Positions 804-27,565 are shown, numbered from the stretch's first letter. The stretch: DNA of 27,705 nucleotides from a virus (IMGVR_UViG_3300043313_001314:1-27705); one strand, 5' to 3'. Notes: generated from the letters alone by a model not told the origin. Numbers and translations are program-made.

Positions 804-1163
804 TCATCTGTCGGGCGACCTGTACTGGCCGTTGGTGCCACGCTCGGGCTTCTCCCGGTCGGCGCGTTTGCGGTCGGCGTCGCGCTTGCGTCGGGCCTCG
901 ACCTCGCCCTTGGACTGGTTGTAGTCGAGGAAGTCGGGGATCAGCATCCCGTCGTCGGATGGCACCCATAGACGTGCCTTGACCAGCGCTTCGATCTCGC
1001 GGGGCTTGCCCAGGTCGCCGACGATGTGCGTCGGCACGAGCCCGTCGGTGAGGTACTGCGCCGACCACGTTCCGCACCGCACCCACAGTCCGACGGCGGC
1101 GTTTCCTGCCAGCTTGACCTTCGGGTGTGAGTGGAACGAATCCTCGATCCGAAACCAGGCCAT
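804..1163 (-). CDS. Phage replication initiator-like protein (119 aa)
   Basis: The N-terminus MAWFRIEDSFHSHPKV followed by AAVGLWVRCGTWSAQ and a C-terminal basic helix (EARRKRDADRKRADREK) matches a common actinophage and prophage protein type. These proteins are annotated as replisome organisers or DnaD/DnaT-like initiators: a winged-helix N-terminal domain with a highly charged tail. The sequence DFLDYNQSKGEVEARR near residues 80-95 is typical of the same family. The ATG at 1163 has a good ribosome binding site (GAGGAG, 6 bases upstream). Its neighbours are a helicase-loader-like gene downstream and DNA methyltransferases upstream, consistent with a job in phage DNA replication. Family known by pattern; exact biochemical role inferred. 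Confidence 0.65.
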   Translation of the reverse strand: MAWFRIEDSFHSHPKVKLAGNAAVGLWVRCGTWSAQYLTDGLVPTHIVGDLGKPREIEALVKARLWVPSDDGMLIPDFLDYNQSKGEVEARRKRDADRKRADREKPERGTNGQYRSPDR

Positions 1164-1181: not shown

Positions 1182-1319
1182 TCATAGATCCCCCTCGTCT
1201 TCGGCGGGTGGCGCGGCCTCGTCGCAGTAGCAGCACTCGTCGCCGTGATCGGTGAAGCACGTGCAGTGCGTCGCGTCGTCGCGGTTGCCGATGCATTCGT
1301 CGAGCGAGAACGTGCTCAT
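1182..1319 (-). CDS. Small cysteine-rich protein (45 aa), possible zinc binder
   Basis: This is a very short protein with six cysteines (residues 9, 19, 21, 29, 30, 32) and two histidines, ending in an acidic tail (PAEDEGDL). The Cys spacing could support one metal site but does not match a zinc-ribbon family I can name. ATG at 1319 overlaps the stop of the upstream methyltransferase gene as ATGA, supporting a real, translationally coupled gene. It is one of two small Cys-bearing proteins mixed with the two methyltransferase genes. Function unknown. Confidence 0.55.
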   Translation of the reverse strand: MSTFSLDECIGNRDDATHCTCFTDHGDECCYCDEAAPPAEDEGDL

Positions 1320-2677
1320 TGGGCCCCCTCGGCGAAGATGTCGAGCTGTCCCGGGAGCTGCGGACGGACGTCGAACAGCGCCTTGGCGCACTCGTCGCGC
1401 CGTCGCGGGTACAGCAGTTTGTTGCGTGCGTCGAGGTCGATGCCGATGGCGTCGCGCCCGTGCAGGTCGGCCACGGCGAGGGTCGTCCCGGTCCCGGCGA
1501 ACGGGTCCAACACGGTGCCCGGGTGGTAGTCGCCGTGGCCGCAGTCCGACCAGCCGAGGGTCTCGCGGGTCACCTCGTACTCGGCACCGAACGGCCCGGC
1601 GTTGACCGTGCGCGCCTCGCTGCGTCCCGCGCTGGGGCCGACCTTGGCGAAGGTGCGCTGGTGGTCGACGATCCGTCGCCGCCCCACCCCGCACGTCGCG
1701 CACACCTCGGCCGGGCACATCATCAGGATCAGCCGTTCGGCCAACTTGGCCGGCCACATCGCATAGTGCGCGAGCGATGACGGCTGGGTGGTGATCGCCC
1801 ACGTGTCGTGCTGGTCGAACCAGCAGTCGAGCGGCGGGGCGCCAGCGGCGTTGCTCACCACGTTCGGCCGCGTCGTCGAGCCCGCTTCGTCGGGATGTCC
1901 GCGGTACAGCCCGTTACCGACAGGCTGGTCGGGGCGCAGCCCGTTGAGCGGGTCCGTCCGCACCGCGTCGAGGTCGAACCACCGTTTGGCCGAGCGTGTC
2001 GCCACGGTGATGTACGACGTGGACGGGCGCACCTTGTCGCCGAGCGCGCCGACGGCCGGGTTGGGGCGGTGCCAGACGATGACGTTGCGCACCAGCCACT
2101 GCCCGGCGGGTGACGGTCGCCCGGTGAGCAGGTTGCGCCCGTAGGCCAGGCTGGTGGCGTACAGCTGCGGGATGAGCGCGAGCGACTTGGCGCGTGGCCA
2201 GCCGGTGCCGCCGCCTTGCACCTTGTTGTCCATGTTCCGGATGCCGGTCAGCGAGTTGTGGCCGTGGCCCGGCGCCTTGATGCGCTCGGAGATGTGGTAA
2301 CCCCCGTCTTGCGGCCGGTCGACGGCGCGGGACCGGCGCTGTGAGCCGTCCGCCTTGCCCTGCCCGTCACGTAGCCCGCCCTCGCCGTAGTCGCCACCTG
2401 CGCCGCCGCTGCCGGCGTACGTGTCGCCGAGCTCGATGGCGATCGAGCCCCACGGGGCGAGCACCCGCCCCCACTCGGCGGTCAGCTCGAGCAGCGTCTC
2501 GAGGAACGTCGCCGGGTCCGGTTCGCTGCCGATCTCCAGCGCCTTGTCCGGGTGGTCGTCGGGCAGGTAGGAGCGCAGGGCGATGAACGGTGGCGACGAG
2601 GCGACGAGCGACACGCCGGCGTCGGGCAGTGAGCGCACCACGTCGCGGGTGTCGCCGATCTCGTAGCGCACGGTCAT
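1316..2677 (-). CDS. DNA methyltransferase, beta class (N4-cytosine or N6-adenine), 453 aa
   Basis: The catalytic motif IV, SSPPF (residues 27-31), lies near the N-terminus and the S-adenosylmethionine-binding motif I, DPFAGTG (391-397), near the C-terminus. This permuted order defines beta-class amino methyltransferases of the DNA methylase N4/N6 family. The SPPF form is more usual in N4-cytosine enzymes than the DPPY of adenine enzymes, so N4 methylation is the better guess. The large middle section should include the target recognition domain. A Cys cluster (CATCG, with a later DCGHG) just before motif I may bind zinc. ATG at 2677 overlaps the upstream stop (ATGA). The protein probably marks phage DNA against host restriction. 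No obvious full cognate restriction enzyme is present. Confidence 0.9.
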   Translation of the reverse strand: MTVRYEIGDTRDVVRSLPDAGVSLVASSPPFIALRSYLPDDHPDKALEIGSEPDPATFLETLLELTAEWGRVLAPWGSIAIELGDTYAGSGGAGGDYGEGGLRDGQGKADGSQRRSRAVDRPQDGGYHISERIKAPGHGHNSLTGIRNMDNKVQGGGTGWPRAKSLALIPQLYATSLAYGRNLLTGRPSPAGQWLVRNVIVWHRPNPAVGALGDKVRPSTSYITVATRSAKRWFDLDAVRTDPLNGLRPDQPVGNGLYRGHPDEAGSTTRPNVVSNAAGAPPLDCWFDQHDTWAITTQPSSLAHYAMWPAKLAERLILMMCPAEVCATCGVGRRRIVDHQRTFAKVGPSAGRSEARTVNAGPFGAEYEVTRETLGWSDCGHGDYHPGTVLDPFAGTGTTLAVADLHGRDAIGIDLDARNKLLYPRRRDECAKALFDVRPQLPGQLDIFAEGAQ

Positions 2678-2988
2678 GAGACGTCAACCGTTCGTAGCGT
2701 CCACTTCTTCGTCACAGACGACTTCCGCCAGCCGTGCACGTGGATCGTCCAGCCGGCGGCGCGCATTGCGGGCAGGTGCGGGTTGTCGGCGATCTTGCGG
2801 ACGCGTGCAGCGACGCCGGTGGTGGTGGTCTGCACGGCCAGCGTCTCGTCTCCGCGTAGGGCGAGCAGGTCGATGCATCCGAACAGGTCTTGTCGGATCC
2901 GGGCGTGCGGGTTCCAGTGTTCGACGACCTCGACGGTGTAGCCGTCGGCGCGCAGGTGCGCGAGTGAGCGTTGGGTGGGACTCAGCAC
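2674..2988 (-). CDS. Small nuclease-like phage protein (104 aa), possible PD-(D/E)XK fold
   Basis: A core of RQDLFGCIDLLAL (residues 32-44) followed by LAVQTTT (50-56) and GWTIHVHGWRK (79-89) is seen in small phage proteins often regarded as PD-(D/E)XK-like. Asp34 or Asp40 would be the metal ligand, and VQTT would sit where a classical enzyme has V-E-x-K. The Glu/Lys of the canonical motif is therefore replaced, so activity is uncertain. The GTG at 2988 was preferred because it overlaps the stop of the upstream gene at 2982; longer in-frame versions start inside that gene. It lies directly between a C5 and a beta-class methyltransferase gene. Nuclease assignment is inferred. Confidence 0.55.
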   Translation of the reverse strand: MLSPTQRSLAHLRADGYTVEVVEHWNPHARIRQDLFGCIDLLALRGDETLAVQTTTTGVAARVRKIADNPHLPAMRAAGWTIHVHGWRKSSVTKKWTLRTVDVS

Positions 2989-3146
2989 GACTCGTCCCGC
3001 ATGCGACCGCAGTGCGGACAGGGTTCGCCGGCGGCGAGGCGGTATCCGTAGTCGGTGCCGTCGTGCCATCCGCACTCGTAGGAGACGTCATCGGGTGACG
3101 CGCTCACGTTGTTGAGGTCGTCGTCGGGCAGGTCGTCGTCGGTCAT
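2982..3146 (-). CDS. Small acidic zinc-finger-like protein (54 aa)
   Basis: The N-terminus is strongly acidic (MTDDDLPDDD) and the C-terminal half carries C25, C43, C46 and C54 with the local motif CPHCG. A single structural zinc site is plausible. The ATG at 3146 overlaps the stop of the C5 methyltransferase gene (ATGA) and the 3' end overlaps the next gene by seven bases. I do not recognise a family. Its acidic head could mimic DNA, but that is speculation. Position links it to the methyltransferase cluster. Confidence 0.55.
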   Translation of the reverse strand: MTDDDLPDDDLNNVSASPDDVSYECGWHDGTDYGYRLAAGEPCPHCGRMRDESC

Positions 3147-3799
3147 GCCAGCACCTCGACGAGTTGGCGGCCGAGGTGCTCGGTGTAGACCGGCGGGATG
3201 GCCTGCGTGAGCTGTTCCCACGGCATCCAGTCGATGCCCATCGCCGCGCACGCGTCGGCGTGGTGGCCGTTGTACTGCTGCGCGCCGTGGACGCCGACGA
3301 CGGCGGCGAGGATGCCGGCCTTGCGGTTCTCGTTGTCGAGCGACGGGTAACGCCCTGGCGCTTGGCTGTCGTGGTCGCACGGTGGCGCGGTGAGCGGCCG
3401 GTTGCTGGCGAACAGTCGGTGGCGGCGTACGTCGAGCCCGAACGACGAGCCGCACAGCATCACCGACCCGTCGGGCATCGGGGCGCCGGGCACGTTCTCC
3501 ACGATCCATGGGACGTCGATCTCGGCGAGTCGGTTGAGCATCGGTGTCAGGTGGTCGACGTGCGGGTCGAACAGCCGCAGCGCGTGGCGGTCGCCGCGGG
3601 CACCGGTGAACAGCTTGCACGGCGGCGAGGCGTGGATGGCGTCGAACCCGTCGAGCGCGAACGTGTCAGCGTCGCCGAGCACGAAGTCGAACGGGTAGTC
3701 GTACTGGCGCACGATGTCGACGCCGACGACCTCGAACCCGGCGCGGTGGTAGCCCATCGCCGCGCCCCCGGCGCCGCAGAACAGGTCCAGCAGCCTCAC
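3143..3799 (-). CDS. DNA (cytosine-5) methyltransferase-like protein (218 aa)
   Basis: Motifs of the Dcm/C5-cytosine methyltransferase family are in normal order: motif I LLDLFCGAGG (residues 3-12), motif IV SPPC with catalytic Cys61, motif VI ENV (101-103), and a motif VIII-like RRHRLF (125-130). At 218 residues it is much shorter than typical bacterial enzymes (over 300 aa), with little room for a target recognition domain, as is common in phage versions. GTG at 3799 overlaps the WhiB stop codon (GTGA) and starts right at motif I; a longer in-frame extension would run through the WhiB gene and was not used. It probably methylates phage DNA to avoid restriction. Confidence 0.85.
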   Translation of the reverse strand: MRLLDLFCGAGGAAMGYHRAGFEVVGVDIVRQYDYPFDFVLGDADTFALDGFDAIHASPPCKLFTGARGDRHALRLFDPHVDHLTPMLNRLAEIDVPWIVENVPGAPMPDGSVMLCGSSFGLDVRRHRLFASNRPLTAPPCDHDSQAPGRYPSLDNENRKAGILAAVVGVHGAQQYNGHHADACAAMGIDWMPWEQLTQAIPPVYTEHLGRQLVEVLA

Positions 3800-4050
3800 G
3801 ACGCCCGCCGGGAGCGGATCGCCCGTAGCTGTTTTTGTGAGCACCCGCCCCAGACGCCGAACGTCTCGCACCGCTCGAGCGCCAGGCGCAGGCAGTCGTC
3901 GCGCACGACGCAGCCGCGGCACACCGCCAGCGCCTGGACCTGCGGGTCGCCGCGCTCGCCGTAGAACATGTCCGGTCCGACGCCGCGGCAGTTGGCCCGG
4001 GCGTACCACTCGGGGACCACGGGCAGTTCGGCGTCGAGCACGGCGGTCAC
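3796..4050 (-). CDS. WhiB-family iron-sulfur transcription factor (84 aa)
   Basis: Four conserved cysteines (C21, C44, C47, C53, with the CxxC CRGC) would ligate a [4Fe-4S] cluster. The downstream turn GVWGG (65-69) and a basic C-terminal tail (QLRAIRSRRAS) for DNA binding complete the WhiB signature. WhiB proteins are confined to actinobacteria and their phages, where they bind the primary sigma factor and alter transcription; in mycobacteriophage TM4 a phage WhiB interferes with the host WhiB2 and septation. The GTG at 4050 overlaps the RecT stop (GTGA). Its place in the early operon suggests a role in host takeover or in regulating phage promoters. A further Cys at 70 is not part of the cluster set. 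Confidence 0.93.
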   Translation of the reverse strand: MTAVLDAELPVVPEWYARANCRGVGPDMFYGERGDPQVQALAVCRGCVVRDDCLRLALERCETFGVWGGCSQKQLRAIRSRRAS

Positions 4051-4904
4051 GTCGGCGGGTCGTCGTCGGCGTCGATGATCTCGCCGGTGTCGGCGTCGAC
4101 GTTGTCCGGGGCCTGGTCGATCTCGATGTAGTCGTCCGTCGACGGATCGACCGAATGGCCGATGTCGCCCAGGTTGGTGAAATGCAGGTCTTTGCCGTCG
4201 GCCTCGTCGGCGCGGGCGAGCTCGACCGTCTGCGGCAGGTACTTACACAGCCGGCGCAGCGCGGTCTTGAGCGCCATCTCGGTGTAGTGCGTCGTCCACG
4301 GCGAGCGCCCCGACCTTGCTCCGGGCGACCCGGCCATCACCTTGTCGATCTGTCGGCGGCTCATCACGACGAACTGCGGTTTGTCCTGCACCAGAGCGAC
4401 GGCGTAGACGTGGGTGATGTCCTTCGGGTCTTCCTCGCCGTCCTCGGCGGGGACGTGCTCGAGCGACGGGTACAGGCCGAGCTGATAGGTGAACAAGTCA
4501 CCGCGGAACACGGGGAACGCGTGGACCGATGAGACCATCCCCGAGCGGCGAGCCAAGTCGAGCATGCCCTTGTACCCGATGATCAGCTGCACGATCTTGC
4601 CGCGGCGCTTGTCGTTGAACGGGATGAGGTAGGCCAGCCCTCGGGCATCGTTGGGTTCGAGCCCGAGCTGCGCGGCACCAACACCGGCGGCAAGGAACGA
4701 CCCCGGGTCGCATTCCAGTAGCTCCCGGTTGGTGGTCGCCGCGGTGAGCAGCAGTCGCACGAACCGCTCCTGCTTGTACCCGGTGGGCAGCGATGCCCCC
4801 ACCGCGGATGCGTTGGCGTCGAGCATCTTGGTCAGCGCCTGCTTCGGGGTGACCTTCGGCGGGTTATCGCGGTTGGCGACGGCGGTCTCGATCTGTCCGG
4901 CCAT
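4047..4904 (-). CDS. recT: RecT-family single-strand DNA annealing protein
   Basis: The protein carries the RecT signature: AAQLGLEPN and AYLIPFNDKR followed by QLIIGYKGMLDLARRSG, then a conserved region to ALRRLCKYLPQT. The C-terminus is acidic, ending DADTGEIIDADDDPPT, like other RecT proteins. RecT anneals complementary single strands produced by a partner exonuclease. The partner, a YqaJ-type exonuclease, is directly upstream. Two adjacent ATGs (4907 and 4904) are possible; the second has the better spacing from AAGGAG, while the first overlaps the upstream stop as ATGA. The pair most likely repairs or recombines phage DNA and can promote mosaic exchange. Confidence 0.93.
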   Translation of the reverse strand: MAGQIETAVANRDNPPKVTPKQALTKMLDANASAVGASLPTGYKQERFVRLLLTAATTNRELLECDPGSFLAAGVGAAQLGLEPNDARGLAYLIPFNDKRRGKIVQLIIGYKGMLDLARRSGMVSSVHAFPVFRGDLFTYQLGLYPSLEHVPAEDGEEDPKDITHVYAVALVQDKPQFVVMSRRQIDKVMAGSPGARSGRSPWTTHYTEMALKTALRRLCKYLPQTVELARADEADGKDLHFTNLGDIGHSVDPSTDDYIEIDQAPDNVDADTGEIIDADDDPPT

Positions 4905-6061
4905 CATTTCTCCTTGGGTTCGTTGACCCGCAACATGCGGGCGGTGGCGGTGCGCTCGAAGTCGCGCACCAGGTCGGGGTGGCACTTGCGCAGCGCGGTG
5001 GTGTCGACCGTCGTGCGCTCGACCGGCTTGCAGGTGGCCAACTTGGTGCCGCCCGAACGCAACTCGGTGTCGTCGCCGAGCAGCAGCCGCAGACGGTTGG
5101 CGGCCTGCTCCTGGTCGGCCTCGGCGGCTTTCACCTGGGCGCGGTGGTAGCGGTACTCGGCGACCAGCTCCAACGCGGTGATGTCGGCCTCGACGATGCC
5201 ACCGGTGCCACCCCACTGGCCCCTGAGAGCCGCTGTGGTGGCCTGGTGGGCGTCGACGGCCGGAGGATGACCGGTGAGCACGTGGTCACGCCAGAAGGCT
5301 TCACAGCGGGGGACGATGAACTCGACGTCGTCGGGGTCGAGGTCGACTTCGTAGAGCCGGAAGCGGCGCGACATGGTGTGCAACGTCGGGACGAACGCGT
5401 GGGTCATGCCGGTGACGAACAGTTGCCACATGACCTGCACCCGGTACGCGATCGGGATGCCGTCTTCCCATGTGCTGTCGCTGGTCGACTTGGCTTCGAT
5501 GACGGCGAGCGGTTCGGTGCCGTTCTCCGATTCGTAGGCGCGCCCGTCGAGGGTGGCCATGAAGTGCGGGTGGTCGGGGTGGGCGACTTCGAGCTGGCAG
5601 TCGGCGACCCATAGTCCGGTGGTGTCGTGGAACCAGCGCAGGATCATCGGTTCGGCGTACTGGCCGAACAGCATGGCGTCGTTCGGTTCGTCGTCGGGCA
5701 GGTCGAGCACCTTGTCGGCCCACACGGAGTAGGGCGACGCGTAGGGCGACAGGCCGAGCACGGCGGCGACGTCGGATGATCCGAGCCCGCGCCGCCGCCG
5801 TGCTAGCCATGCCTGCCTTGCCGGGCCCGACCCCGCCGCGCCTTGCCCGGCCGCGCCTATCCGAGCCTTGTCAGTCGGGTCCGGGCCAGCCCCAGAAGTC
5901 GTCGTCGCCGCACCACTCCCACGCGGCGGGGTGCTCGGGCTCGACACCGCGGTCGTAGTCGCGGCGGTCTCGCCAGGTCCACCAGCGCGGGCAGTCGTCG
6001 TCGCGCACGTCTCGCATTGCTCTCCGATCGTCGCCACCCACGAACCACACGTGATGCACAT
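4904..6061 (-). CDS. YqaJ-family viral recombinase/exonuclease with an N-terminal zinc ribbon
   Basis: YqaJ motifs are complete: GLGSSDVAAVLGLSPY (residues 92-107), QYAEP with Glu137, TLDGR with Asp172, VIEAKS with Glu189 and Lys191, and a QVMWQ helix (209-213). These are the metal-binding and catalytic residues of lambda-exonuclease-like PD-(D/E)XK enzymes. A helical, probably coiled C-terminal region follows. It should resect double-stranded ends to feed RecT, encoded immediately downstream. The start is uncertain: no ATG or GTG lies just before the catalytic domain. Reading back to ATG 6061 (or GTG 6064) adds CITC and CETC, a convincing zinc ribbon, then about 50 residues of Thr/Ala/Gly-rich linker that overlaps another reading frame. 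Confidence 0.85.
   Translation of the reverse strand: MCITCGSWVATIGEQCETCATTTARAGGPGETAATTTAVSSPSTPPRGSGAATTTSGAGPDPTDKARIGAAGQGAAGSGPARQAWLARRRRGLGSSDVAAVLGLSPYASPYSVWADKVLDLPDDEPNDAMLFGQYAEPMILRWFHDTTGLWVADCQLEVAHPDHPHFMATLDGRAYESENGTEPLAVIEAKSTSDSTWEDGIPIAYRVQVMWQLFVTGMTHAFVPTLHTMSRRFRLYEVDLDPDDVEFIVPRCEAFWRDHVLTGHPPAVDAHQATTAALRGQWGGTGGIVEADITALELVAEYRYHRAQVKAAEADQEQAANRLRLLLGDDTELRSGGTKLATCKPVERTTVDTTALRKCHPDLVRDFERTATARMLRVNEPKEK
5871..6017 (-). CDS. Tryptophan/aspartate-rich small ORF overlapping the exonuclease 5' region (48 aa)
   Basis: In a different frame inside the linker part of the exonuclease gene, an ATG at 6017 preceded by GGAG four bases upstream opens a 48-codon frame. Its product contains RWWTWRDRRDYDRG and ends DDDFWGWPGPD. 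Third codon positions are almost all G or C, richer than in the overlapping linker frame, and the composition looks like a real small phage protein. It also fits an out-of-frame ORF by chance. If real, it is a fully overlapping gene; if the linker frame is not used, the exonuclease starts further in. I know no family for it. Confidence 0.4.
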   Translation of the reverse strand: MRDVRDDDCPRWWTWRDRRDYDRGVEPEHPAAWEWCGDDDFWGWPGPD

Positions 6062-9061: not shown

Positions 9062-9573
9062 TGGACCTGACTGGGGGTCCGGTGGTGCAAGATGTAATCG
9101 TGGAGGTGATCCCGACCGAGTCCATCGGTGTCCGACCGTCGCCCGACGGCACCCATCTAGGTTCGGTCGACGGGATGAGCACGACGGACCTGGCCGAGGC
9201 GATCAGGGCCGAGCTGACGGCCCGTGACATGACCTGGTCGGCGTTCATGCGCGCCGCGTCGATCTCGCAACGCACGATGCAAGCGCTACGCGACGGCGAC
9301 ACCGACCGGGTCTTCGGCCACACCCTGCTGGCCAAGATCGACGACGTCTTCGGCTTCGAGCGCGGCCACTTCTACCGGATCTGGAAGGCCCAGGCGCGCT
9401 CGCCGCAGCTCGACGAGATCGCCACCCAGATGCGCCTGCTGGAAGCCAAGCTGGCCGAGATGCGCGACCGCCCGCCGTGGTACGCGGAGGCGCTCGAGGT
9501 GCTCGGCGCCCTGTCCGTCGAGGACCGCGAGTGGGTGCTCAGCGGTGCTCGTCGTCTTGGCCGGCGGCGATGA
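9061..9573 (+). CDS. Repressor-like DNA-binding protein
   Basis: One of only two credible rightward genes. The domain from TTDLAEAIRAELTARDMTWSAF through SISQRTMQALRDGD to TLLAKIDDVFGFERGHFY is an XRE-like helix-turn-helix, followed by a helical C-terminal part (MRLLEAKLAEMRDRPPW) that probably dimerises. Position between the integrase region and the divergent early operon fits an immunity repressor that keeps the phage dormant. The start is not settled: ATG 9061 gives 170 aa with an unconserved head; ATG 9175 opens right at the HTH domain; a leaderless GTG near 9106 would fit the TGTAAT at 9093-9098. The 3' end overlaps the convergent gene by 35 bases. Confidence 0.72.
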   Translation: MDLTGGPVVQDVIVEVIPTESIGVRPSPDGTHLGSVDGMSTTDLAEAIRAELTARDMTWSAFMRAASISQRTMQALRDGDTDRVFGHTLLAKIDDVFGFERGHFYRIWKAQARSPQLDEIATQMRLLEAKLAEMRDRPPWYAEALEVLGALSVEDREWVLSGARRLGRRR

Positions 9574-26572: not shown

Positions 26573-26850
26573 CGCTGCCGTCGCTTGGGTGGCAGCCCGG
26601 CACGCTTGCGGGCGTCGCGCACCTTGACCGCCGCCCGCCAACCACCGCGGCGGATGTTGCAGCGCAGGTGCGCCGGCCGCAGCACGCAGCAGGGCGAGCC
26701 GGGCACGTGACGGTGTTGCCACAGAGCGGGGACGTGGTCGGCTGAGTCGGCGCCGGGCTGGCCGCAGATGTGGCAGTGCGGGCGCGTGGCCAACATCGCC
26801 GCTCGCGCCGCCTGGTAATGCCGGTCGTACTTACTGCCGCGACGTGGCAC
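26569..26850 (-). CDS. HNH endonuclease next to the terminase (93 aa)
   Basis: Two zinc-binding pairs (CHIC at 26-29; C54 or C55 with C64) frame the HNH motif: ADHV with His39, then RPAHLRCN with His61 and Asn65. Free-standing HNH proteins of this size beside terminases (as HK97 gp74) take part in cos cleavage during packaging. GTG 26850 has AAGGAG seven bases upstream and overlaps the preceding gene by 20 bases. The basic C-terminus (RAGLPPKRRQR) probably binds DNA. Confidence 0.88.
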   Translation of the reverse strand: MPRRGSKYDRHYQAARAAMLATRPHCHICGQPGADSADHVPALWQHRHVPGSPCCVLRPAHLRCNIRRGGWRAAVKVRDARKRAGLPPKRRQR

Positions 26851-27565
26851 TGAGGTACTCCTTGATCCGGTCTGGGCCGACGATTGCCATCAGTTTCTCG
26901 TAACCGGCGATGTCTCGGTTGCAGCGGTGGCAGATGATGCCGCGCACGCACCGCCCGCAACTCTTGAACTCGCTGGACTCGGCCTTGCAGCAGGCGTGGT
27001 CGTGGTCGACGCACTTGGCCCGTCGGCCGGACTCGGTGGTTGTGAACCGCTCGCCGCACAGGTTGCACTCGGTGGCCGTGATCAGCTGGAGAGCCAGTTC
27101 CATGCTCAGGTTGTAGCCACGGATCGTTCCCATGAAGTGCTTGCGGCACCTCGTGCACACCACTCGGCACAGCTCGTGCTGCTCGGCGCGAACGTTGTGG
27201 TCGAGCACGGACTGGTACCAGCCGAACTCGCCGCCACACGCGATGCACGTCGCCCACGTCCGCAGGCCTAGTGCTTCGGTTCGCTCGGCGACGGTCGTGC
27301 TCGAGCGGACCAGCGCGGGCGGGCGGTGCTCCTCGCAGTAGGCGTTGCCCTTCAGCCGGCGGCGGGTGCAATCACGGCGTGCGCACTTCGGATCGCGCCA
27401 GCGGACGCGAGACGACCGCTGGTGCTCGAAGCAGCGACGACAGCGACAGCCCCGTCCGTAGCCGGTCCCCGGCGAATGATCCGGGAAGCGGCAATTATCG
27501 TCCCGAGCTAATCCGATATCGTCCGATTCGTCCAAATTGAATAAGTCTAATTGACTCATAATCAT
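26831..27565 (-). CDS. Endonuclease VII-like His-Me finger nuclease with Cys-rich head (244 aa)
   Basis: The C-terminal domain has CNLCGERF, then CVDHDHACC (185-193) and RGIICHRCN (208-216), which is the recombination endonuclease VII arrangement: zinc ligands plus catalytic His/Asp. Upstream, CRCRRC and CARRDCTRRR, CIACG and CTRC give further Cys pairs, so two or three more zinc sites are possible. Such enzymes resolve branched phage DNA before packaging. It is the first late gene, with AGGGA just ahead of ATG 27565 (a second ATG follows two codons later). The first 25 codons are AT-rich and contain three TTA codons, unlike the rest. Confidence 0.8.
   Translation of the reverse strand: MIMSQLDLFNLDESDDIGLARDDNCRFPDHSPGTGYGRGCRCRRCFEHQRSSRVRWRDPKCARRDCTRRRLKGNAYCEEHRPPALVRSSTTVAERTEALGLRTWATCIACGGEFGWYQSVLDHNVRAEQHELCRVVCTRCRKHFMGTIRGYNLSMELALQLITATECNLCGERFTTTESGRRAKCVDHDHACCKAESSEFKSCGRCVRGIICHRCNRDIAGYEKLMAIVGPDRIKEYLSATSRQ

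Follow-up and report, generated by a model that had tools for sequence, protein, structure and literature searches.

The five overlapping genes at 1182–3799 of a 27.7-kb virus record from IMG/VR (IMGVR_UViG_3300043313_001314; "the window" below means this whole stretch) include two DNA methyltransferase (MTase) genes and, between them, a gene for a protein of 104 amino acids (aa). It is this 104-aa gene alone that makes the block unusual. We hold, with moderate confidence, that its product is a phage junction-processing nuclease with a role like that of RusA, Rap or Hjc and a non-canonical active site, a prediction drawn from its fold, its conserved residues and its genomic context. The protein would probably cut Holliday junctions or forks, the branched intermediates of recombination, as a structure-specific endonuclease, and would fill the role that RusA or Rap/NinG has in other phages. 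A reading of the sequence alone had seen the two MTases enclosing a nuclease-like protein and proposed a compact modification or restriction-exclusion system; the observation was right, but the cassette reading is unsupported.

The 104-aa protein has no significant match in Pfam, PHROG, PADLOC or PDB sequence searches. Modelled with AlphaFold2 on a 57-member alignment of its family, it gave a confident structure (predicted local distance difference test, pLDDT, 95.9; predicted template modelling score, pTM, 0.86), in which helix, strands, helix and strands follow one another in the PD-(D/E)XK order: D40 opens one core strand (41–45), Q53xT55 closes the next, and R62/K65 lie in the following helix. 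In a Foldseek search of the PDB, the top 14 matches of this model were all Hjc-type resolvases (E-values 8.5e-4 to 4e-3, probability 1.00). A second model, of a family member 45% identical to the window protein (L127), reached a pLDDT of 94.0, and the Foldseek matches over both models include Hjc, HincII, R2 endonuclease and tRNA-splicing endonuclease. On these models the 104-aa protein very probably has a PD-(D/E)XK fold, and the nuclease-like character first guessed from the sequence is borne out by structure prediction and Foldseek together.

Hjc is the nearest solved structure, sharing the small single-domain PD-(D/E)XK fold and giving the best Foldseek matches, but on the features compared the protein does not qualify for any named nuclease family. 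From Hjc (PF01870) the family differs in having no significant sequence or profile similarity to it, in having Q and T for the motif-III E and K, in the missing motif-I Glu of helix 1, and in the extra invariant residues E23, D34 and R62/K65. Several results speak against too close a tie to the resolvases: PF01870 had no match in the window at E ≤ 10 and matched one of the 57 family members (E 0.035), hhalign against four Hjc sequences returned an unsupportive probability of 5.9%, and hmmsearch against PDB sequences found nothing. Likewise, the PDB matches of the L127 model were weak (E at least 0.02) and mostly superfamily-wide (R2 endonuclease, SfsA, HincII), the first being an unrelated protein and Hjc not being at the top. 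The PHROG "Holliday junction resolvase" profile gave weak matches in 4/57 members (E 0.02), which is a hint only. Because the L127 model did not give Hjc as its best match, it is the first model, together with context, that carries the link to Hjc; and because the profile comparison is unsupportive as well, we speak of a family with the PD-(D/E)XK fold and not of Hjc members.

The superfamily-wide ties of the L127 model would suit a PD-(D/E)XK nuclease that serves some other purpose (for instance exonucleolytic processing of ends, breakdown of host DNA or origin nicking) and whose proximity to the recombination gene NinB/Orf is a habit of the nin region; indeed, some family loci adjoin helicases, RecB-like exonucleases or replication genes and not NinB. 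We regard this as improbable, given that every one of the solved structures nearest to the window protein is a junction resolvase and that the family and RusA, NinG or a PD-EVK nuclease are mutually exclusive (see below).

Across the 57 diverged members of the alignment, E23, D34, D40, Q53, R62 and K65 are invariant, while P4, T5, T55, A61, I66, G86 and W87 are kept in at least 90%. The motif-II Asp expected where core strand 2 begins is present as D40 (57/57), just ahead of strand 41–45, but in core strand 3 Q53-x-T55 stands in place of (D/E)xK, so that of the Hjc catalytic set E – D – ExK the Asp alone is kept. That motif I lacks its canonical Glu, and motif III both its Glu and its Lys, counts against the reading as a junction nuclease. 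It had been noticed from the sequence, correctly, that VQTT replaces V-E-x-K, and the core was thought possibly degenerate; the PD-(D/E)XK hint holds but the degeneracy does not, as QxT, like R62/K65, is a fixed feature of the family. Because QxT is invariant and the helix that follows holds a Lys and an Arg that never vary, VQTT looks like a variant site and not like a degenerate one.

Comparable arrangements have been described. Hjc_15-6 of Thermus phage Tth15-6, which has been shown to cut junctions, has the proposed site E10-D40-E53-K55 (PMC8805305), and its D40-x12-E53-x-K55 spacing is identical to the D40-x12-Q53-x-T55 of the 104-aa protein. In COG4636 the catalytic Lys is proposed to have moved to the helix after core strand 3 (PMC551604), and in DUF1626 the Lys is proposed to sit in the helix that follows strand 3, Thr often standing in motif III (PMC1913061). 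The 104-aa family resembles COG4636 and DUF1626/DUF506 in having a Lys in the post-strand-3 helix, and T55 recalls the Thr that DUF1626 often has for the motif-III Lys; the differences are that COG4636 keeps the motif-III Glu (PD-EXX-K) where the 104-aa family has Gln, and that neither COG4636 nor DUF1626/DUF506 has a sequence match to it, both being found in other hosts and contexts. The invariant residues of the 104-aa family suggest that its active site is rearranged, the Lys having moved to the following helix (K65), as has been proposed before for other PD-(D/E)XK families. In the chemistry that we predict, a metal ion would be held by D40 and Q53 together with E23, D34 or both, and the missing motif-III Lys would be replaced by K65, along with R62, in the helix after the QxT strand.

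The same substitutions, Q and T for the motif-III E and K together with the missing helix-1 Glu of motif I, can also be taken to mean a catalytically dead PD-(D/E)XK fold that binds junctions, single-stranded DNA (ssDNA) or forks, for example as a helper to NinB/Orf or RecT. This is the less likely course, though one to be taken seriously: the strict conservation of three acidic residues, a Lys and an Arg over 57 diverged members exceeds what binding alone would normally need, and the 104-aa protein takes the slot of proven resolvases. If the family is a junction nuclease, it offers a clear natural test of a PD-(D/E)XK site from which both the motif-III Glu and the motif-III Lys are missing, and the invariant residues point to the mutants worth making.

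Lambdoid phages carry rap or rusA between NinB/Orf and the Q antiterminator, and in other phages it is in this slot that the 104-aa family is found. The family comprises about 218 loci (a few contigs were fetched twice), and the neighbours of 131 distinct sequences were compared. By clustering of the neighbours, NinB/Orf (PF05772) lies upstream of the family gene in 70/131 distinct members and a YbcO/DUF968 nuclease in 65/131, while a small gene, mostly two places downstream, is present in 67/131, at the position of the antitermination genes of annotated phages. The annotated phages themselves show the order NinB – 104-aa family – Q and also replication gene – 104-aa family – Q. A 183-aa protein of phrog_12600 (function unannotated; L068:1559–2110) occurs upstream of the family in 9 distinct contexts.

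The family replaces RusA or NinG in the loci examined and does not accompany either. The comparison covers 39 NinB loci, 16 with the 104-aa family and 23 without; the latter include five with NinG, one with RusA and three with an approximately 100-aa PD-EVK nuclease, and none of the 39 has two of these four (Fisher p 0.005, a value that overstates independence because the loci are related). RusA, NinG and the PD-EVK nuclease were found in 0/218 family loci in the flanking DNA examined, and over 38 whole contigs with the family there were 0/38 with RusA, 0/38 with VRR_NUC and 1/38 with NinG, just over the cut-off. The clearest swap is seen in a Luteibacter-type prophage (L281, family gene at 9122–9433) with the order NinB – YbcO-like – 104-aa family: L282, in which NinB is 75% and the downstream gene 67% identical, has RusA at the 104-aa position, and L284, with a NinB 61% identical, YbcO and a downstream gene 45% identical, has a 100-aa PD-EVK protein in the slot. 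The likeness to RusA (PF05866) and Rap/NinG (PF05766) is one of position, after NinB/Orf and before the antiterminator, and of presumed role only, since folds and sequences are unrelated.

On the other side of the scale, 14 of the 23 NinB loci without the 104-aa family had none of the tested nucleases, EndoVII-like genes were above the cut-off in 4/38 contigs with the family, and the window itself lacks NinB, having RecT and YqaJ upstream instead. The window also encodes, near the terminase gene, a 244-aa protein with an Endonuclease VII-like domain (PF02945, 1.7e-6; 26831–27565, minus strand), possibly a second branched-DNA nuclease of the source phage.

Other small proteins share the slot. 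Those at L284:2830–3132, L292:10022–10321 and L307:1043–1354 are approximately 100 aa long, have a canonical PD...EVK/EIK motif and lie in or near the 104-aa/RusA/NinG slot; a scan of those from L284 and L292 gave no Pfam match. A 135-aa protein right after NinB (L317:8305–8712), with an FVETK motif, is possibly another PD-(D/E)XK nuclease of the slot.

A single scan of IMG/VR gave 282 candidate relatives of the 104-aa protein, and diverged queries gave more. The family is also found in six annotated phage records and in eight bacterial contigs, including Luteibacter, Rhodanobacter and Cupriavidus; for the latter a 10-row alignment was used, the 57-row alignment being too diverse for a genome scan. 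Several of the eight bacterial flanks hold phage genes (NinB with a terminase, a primase-like gene or YqaJ), and a plasmid search gave no match to the family. We see an even chance that the family is a new phage class of Holliday-junction or branched-DNA nuclease, with an E-D-D-QxT-RxxK site in place of E-D-ExK, widespread in environmental phages, filling the NinB–Q slot where RusA and Rap are lacking and absent from the searched libraries. Many environmental phages have recombination genes of the NinB/Orf type without RusA and Rap; should the 104-aa family supply their junction nuclease, a role could be given to hundreds of "hypothetical" genes.

The window comes from a high-GC temperate phage (GC content 0.69) and encodes, by profile matches, a tyrosine integrase, a terminase, and ParB-like and WhiB proteins. 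The block and its neighbours are, in order of transcription:

4904–5818, minus strand: YqaJ/RecE-like recombination exonuclease, N-terminal limit approximate (phrog_434 6.8e-79; PF09588 7.7e-25)
4047–4907, minus strand: RecT-family ssDNA-annealing protein, start approximate (phrog_148 4.6e-66; PF03837 6.7e-39)
3796–4050, minus strand: WhiB-like regulator, 84 aa, overlapping the C5 MTase start, in the same operon
3143–3799, minus strand: C5 MTase, 218 aa, GTG start (PF00145, phrog_363, motifs)
2982–3146, minus strand: 54-aa acidic protein with four Cys, possible zinc ribbon
2674–2988, minus strand: 104-aa protein, GTG start, of an uncatalogued, predicted PD-(D/E)XK family (conservation, AlphaFold2, Foldseek, context)
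1316–2677, minus strand: beta-class N4-cytosine/N6-adenine MTase, 453 aa (PF01555, phrog_67)
1182–1319, minus strand: 45-aa protein with six Cys
804–1163, minus strand: short protein resembling replication initiators, 119 aa, directly after the five-gene block (phrog_2447 8.8e-40)

All five open reading frames of the block (C5 MTase to 45-aa protein) were confirmed in place, overlapping by 4, 7, 4 and 4 nt in order of transcription, so the five overlapping genes in a row are real. Even the tiny ones look coding, because each of the five, like the phage genes around them, has a GC of 0.83–0.93 at third codon positions and a lower GC at second positions. The overlaps do not stop at the five, however: the YqaJ, RecT and WhiB genes precede the block in the same style, and the YqaJ exonuclease and RecT annealase pair (4047–5818, minus strand) forms a recombination module leading into the MTase block. 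Since these genes overlap likewise, the stop/start overlaps reflect an operon habit and do not mark a five-part complex. The block is the end of a recombination/replication operon, in which YqaJ exonuclease, RecT annealase and WhiB are followed by the five genes.

A single restriction-modification or restriction-exclusion unit made up of the two MTases and the 104-aa protein is very improbable. The 104-aa gene was absent from the examined flanking DNA of all 13 relatives of the N4/N6 MTase and all 55 of the C5 MTase, and the five-gene order, whose recurrence in other phages the sequence-only reading had put forward as a check, was found in no other locus of the relatives. An MTase of either class lies within approximately 4 kb of the 104-aa family in 44/204 loci (31/131 distinct sequences), which leaves about three quarters of distinct members with none nearby. 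The translational coupling in the window would favour such a unit, but it extends over the whole operon, the WhiB and RecT genes included. Also in its favour is a distant phage (L195) in which, as in the window, an ATGA overlap joins the 104-aa gene to that of an N4/N6 MTase (59% and 48% identical, respectively, to their window counterparts); this is the only recurrence of that pair, and the C5 MTase upstream belongs to a different subfamily from the window's. The L195 pair is weak evidence for a link between the 104-aa and N4/N6 MTase genes and none for a five-gene unit. A few other phages have MTases directly upstream of the family gene, as does Stenotrophomonas phage CUB19 (L086, gp60–gp61), and in Methylophilales phage Venkman (L084, gp32–gp35) a DNA MTase lies just upstream; in both the family gene is annotated hypothetical. 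Finally, a type II system would have nuclease and cognate MTase linked across relatives, whereas an adjacent related MTase was found only in L195, and the 104-aa protein is unmatched in PADLOC. The cassette was thus rejected on context (68 MTase-relative loci without the 104-aa gene, and some three quarters of family members without such an MTase), which corrects a tempting but wrong reading, in which MTase and nuclease neighbours are taken as a restriction-type system.

Zinc binding by the two small Cys proteins, read at first as zinc proteins, is no more than a suggestion. The 54-aa protein has profile matches to zinc ribbons, all of them sub-threshold, and the 45-aa protein had none in the same search; for both, a search for relatives gave nothing beyond E 0.4.

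The MTases are, as first read, of two different classes. The C5 MTase matches PF00145 (1.2e-4) and phrog_363 (4.8e-27), carries motifs I (DLFCGAGG), IV (SPPC), VI (ENV) and VIII (RRHR), and has kin in 293 phage records, the majority from phages of Mycobacterium and Streptomyces; the N4/N6 MTase matches PF01555 (1.8e-19) and phrog_67 (3.7e-31), with SPPF preceding DPFAGTGTT in the beta order. With complete catalytic motifs and a family match each, both belong by sequence to common solitary phage families (phrog_363, phrog_67). Solitary phage MTases have been described as possible anti-restriction devices (PMC9957025), and these two, on the same transcript as the 104-aa gene, probably guard the phage genome against host restriction. 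The window differs from other carriers of these families in having two classes in one operon, which is uncommon; two MTase classes together near the 104-aa family are seen also in L195, L023 and L026/L039.
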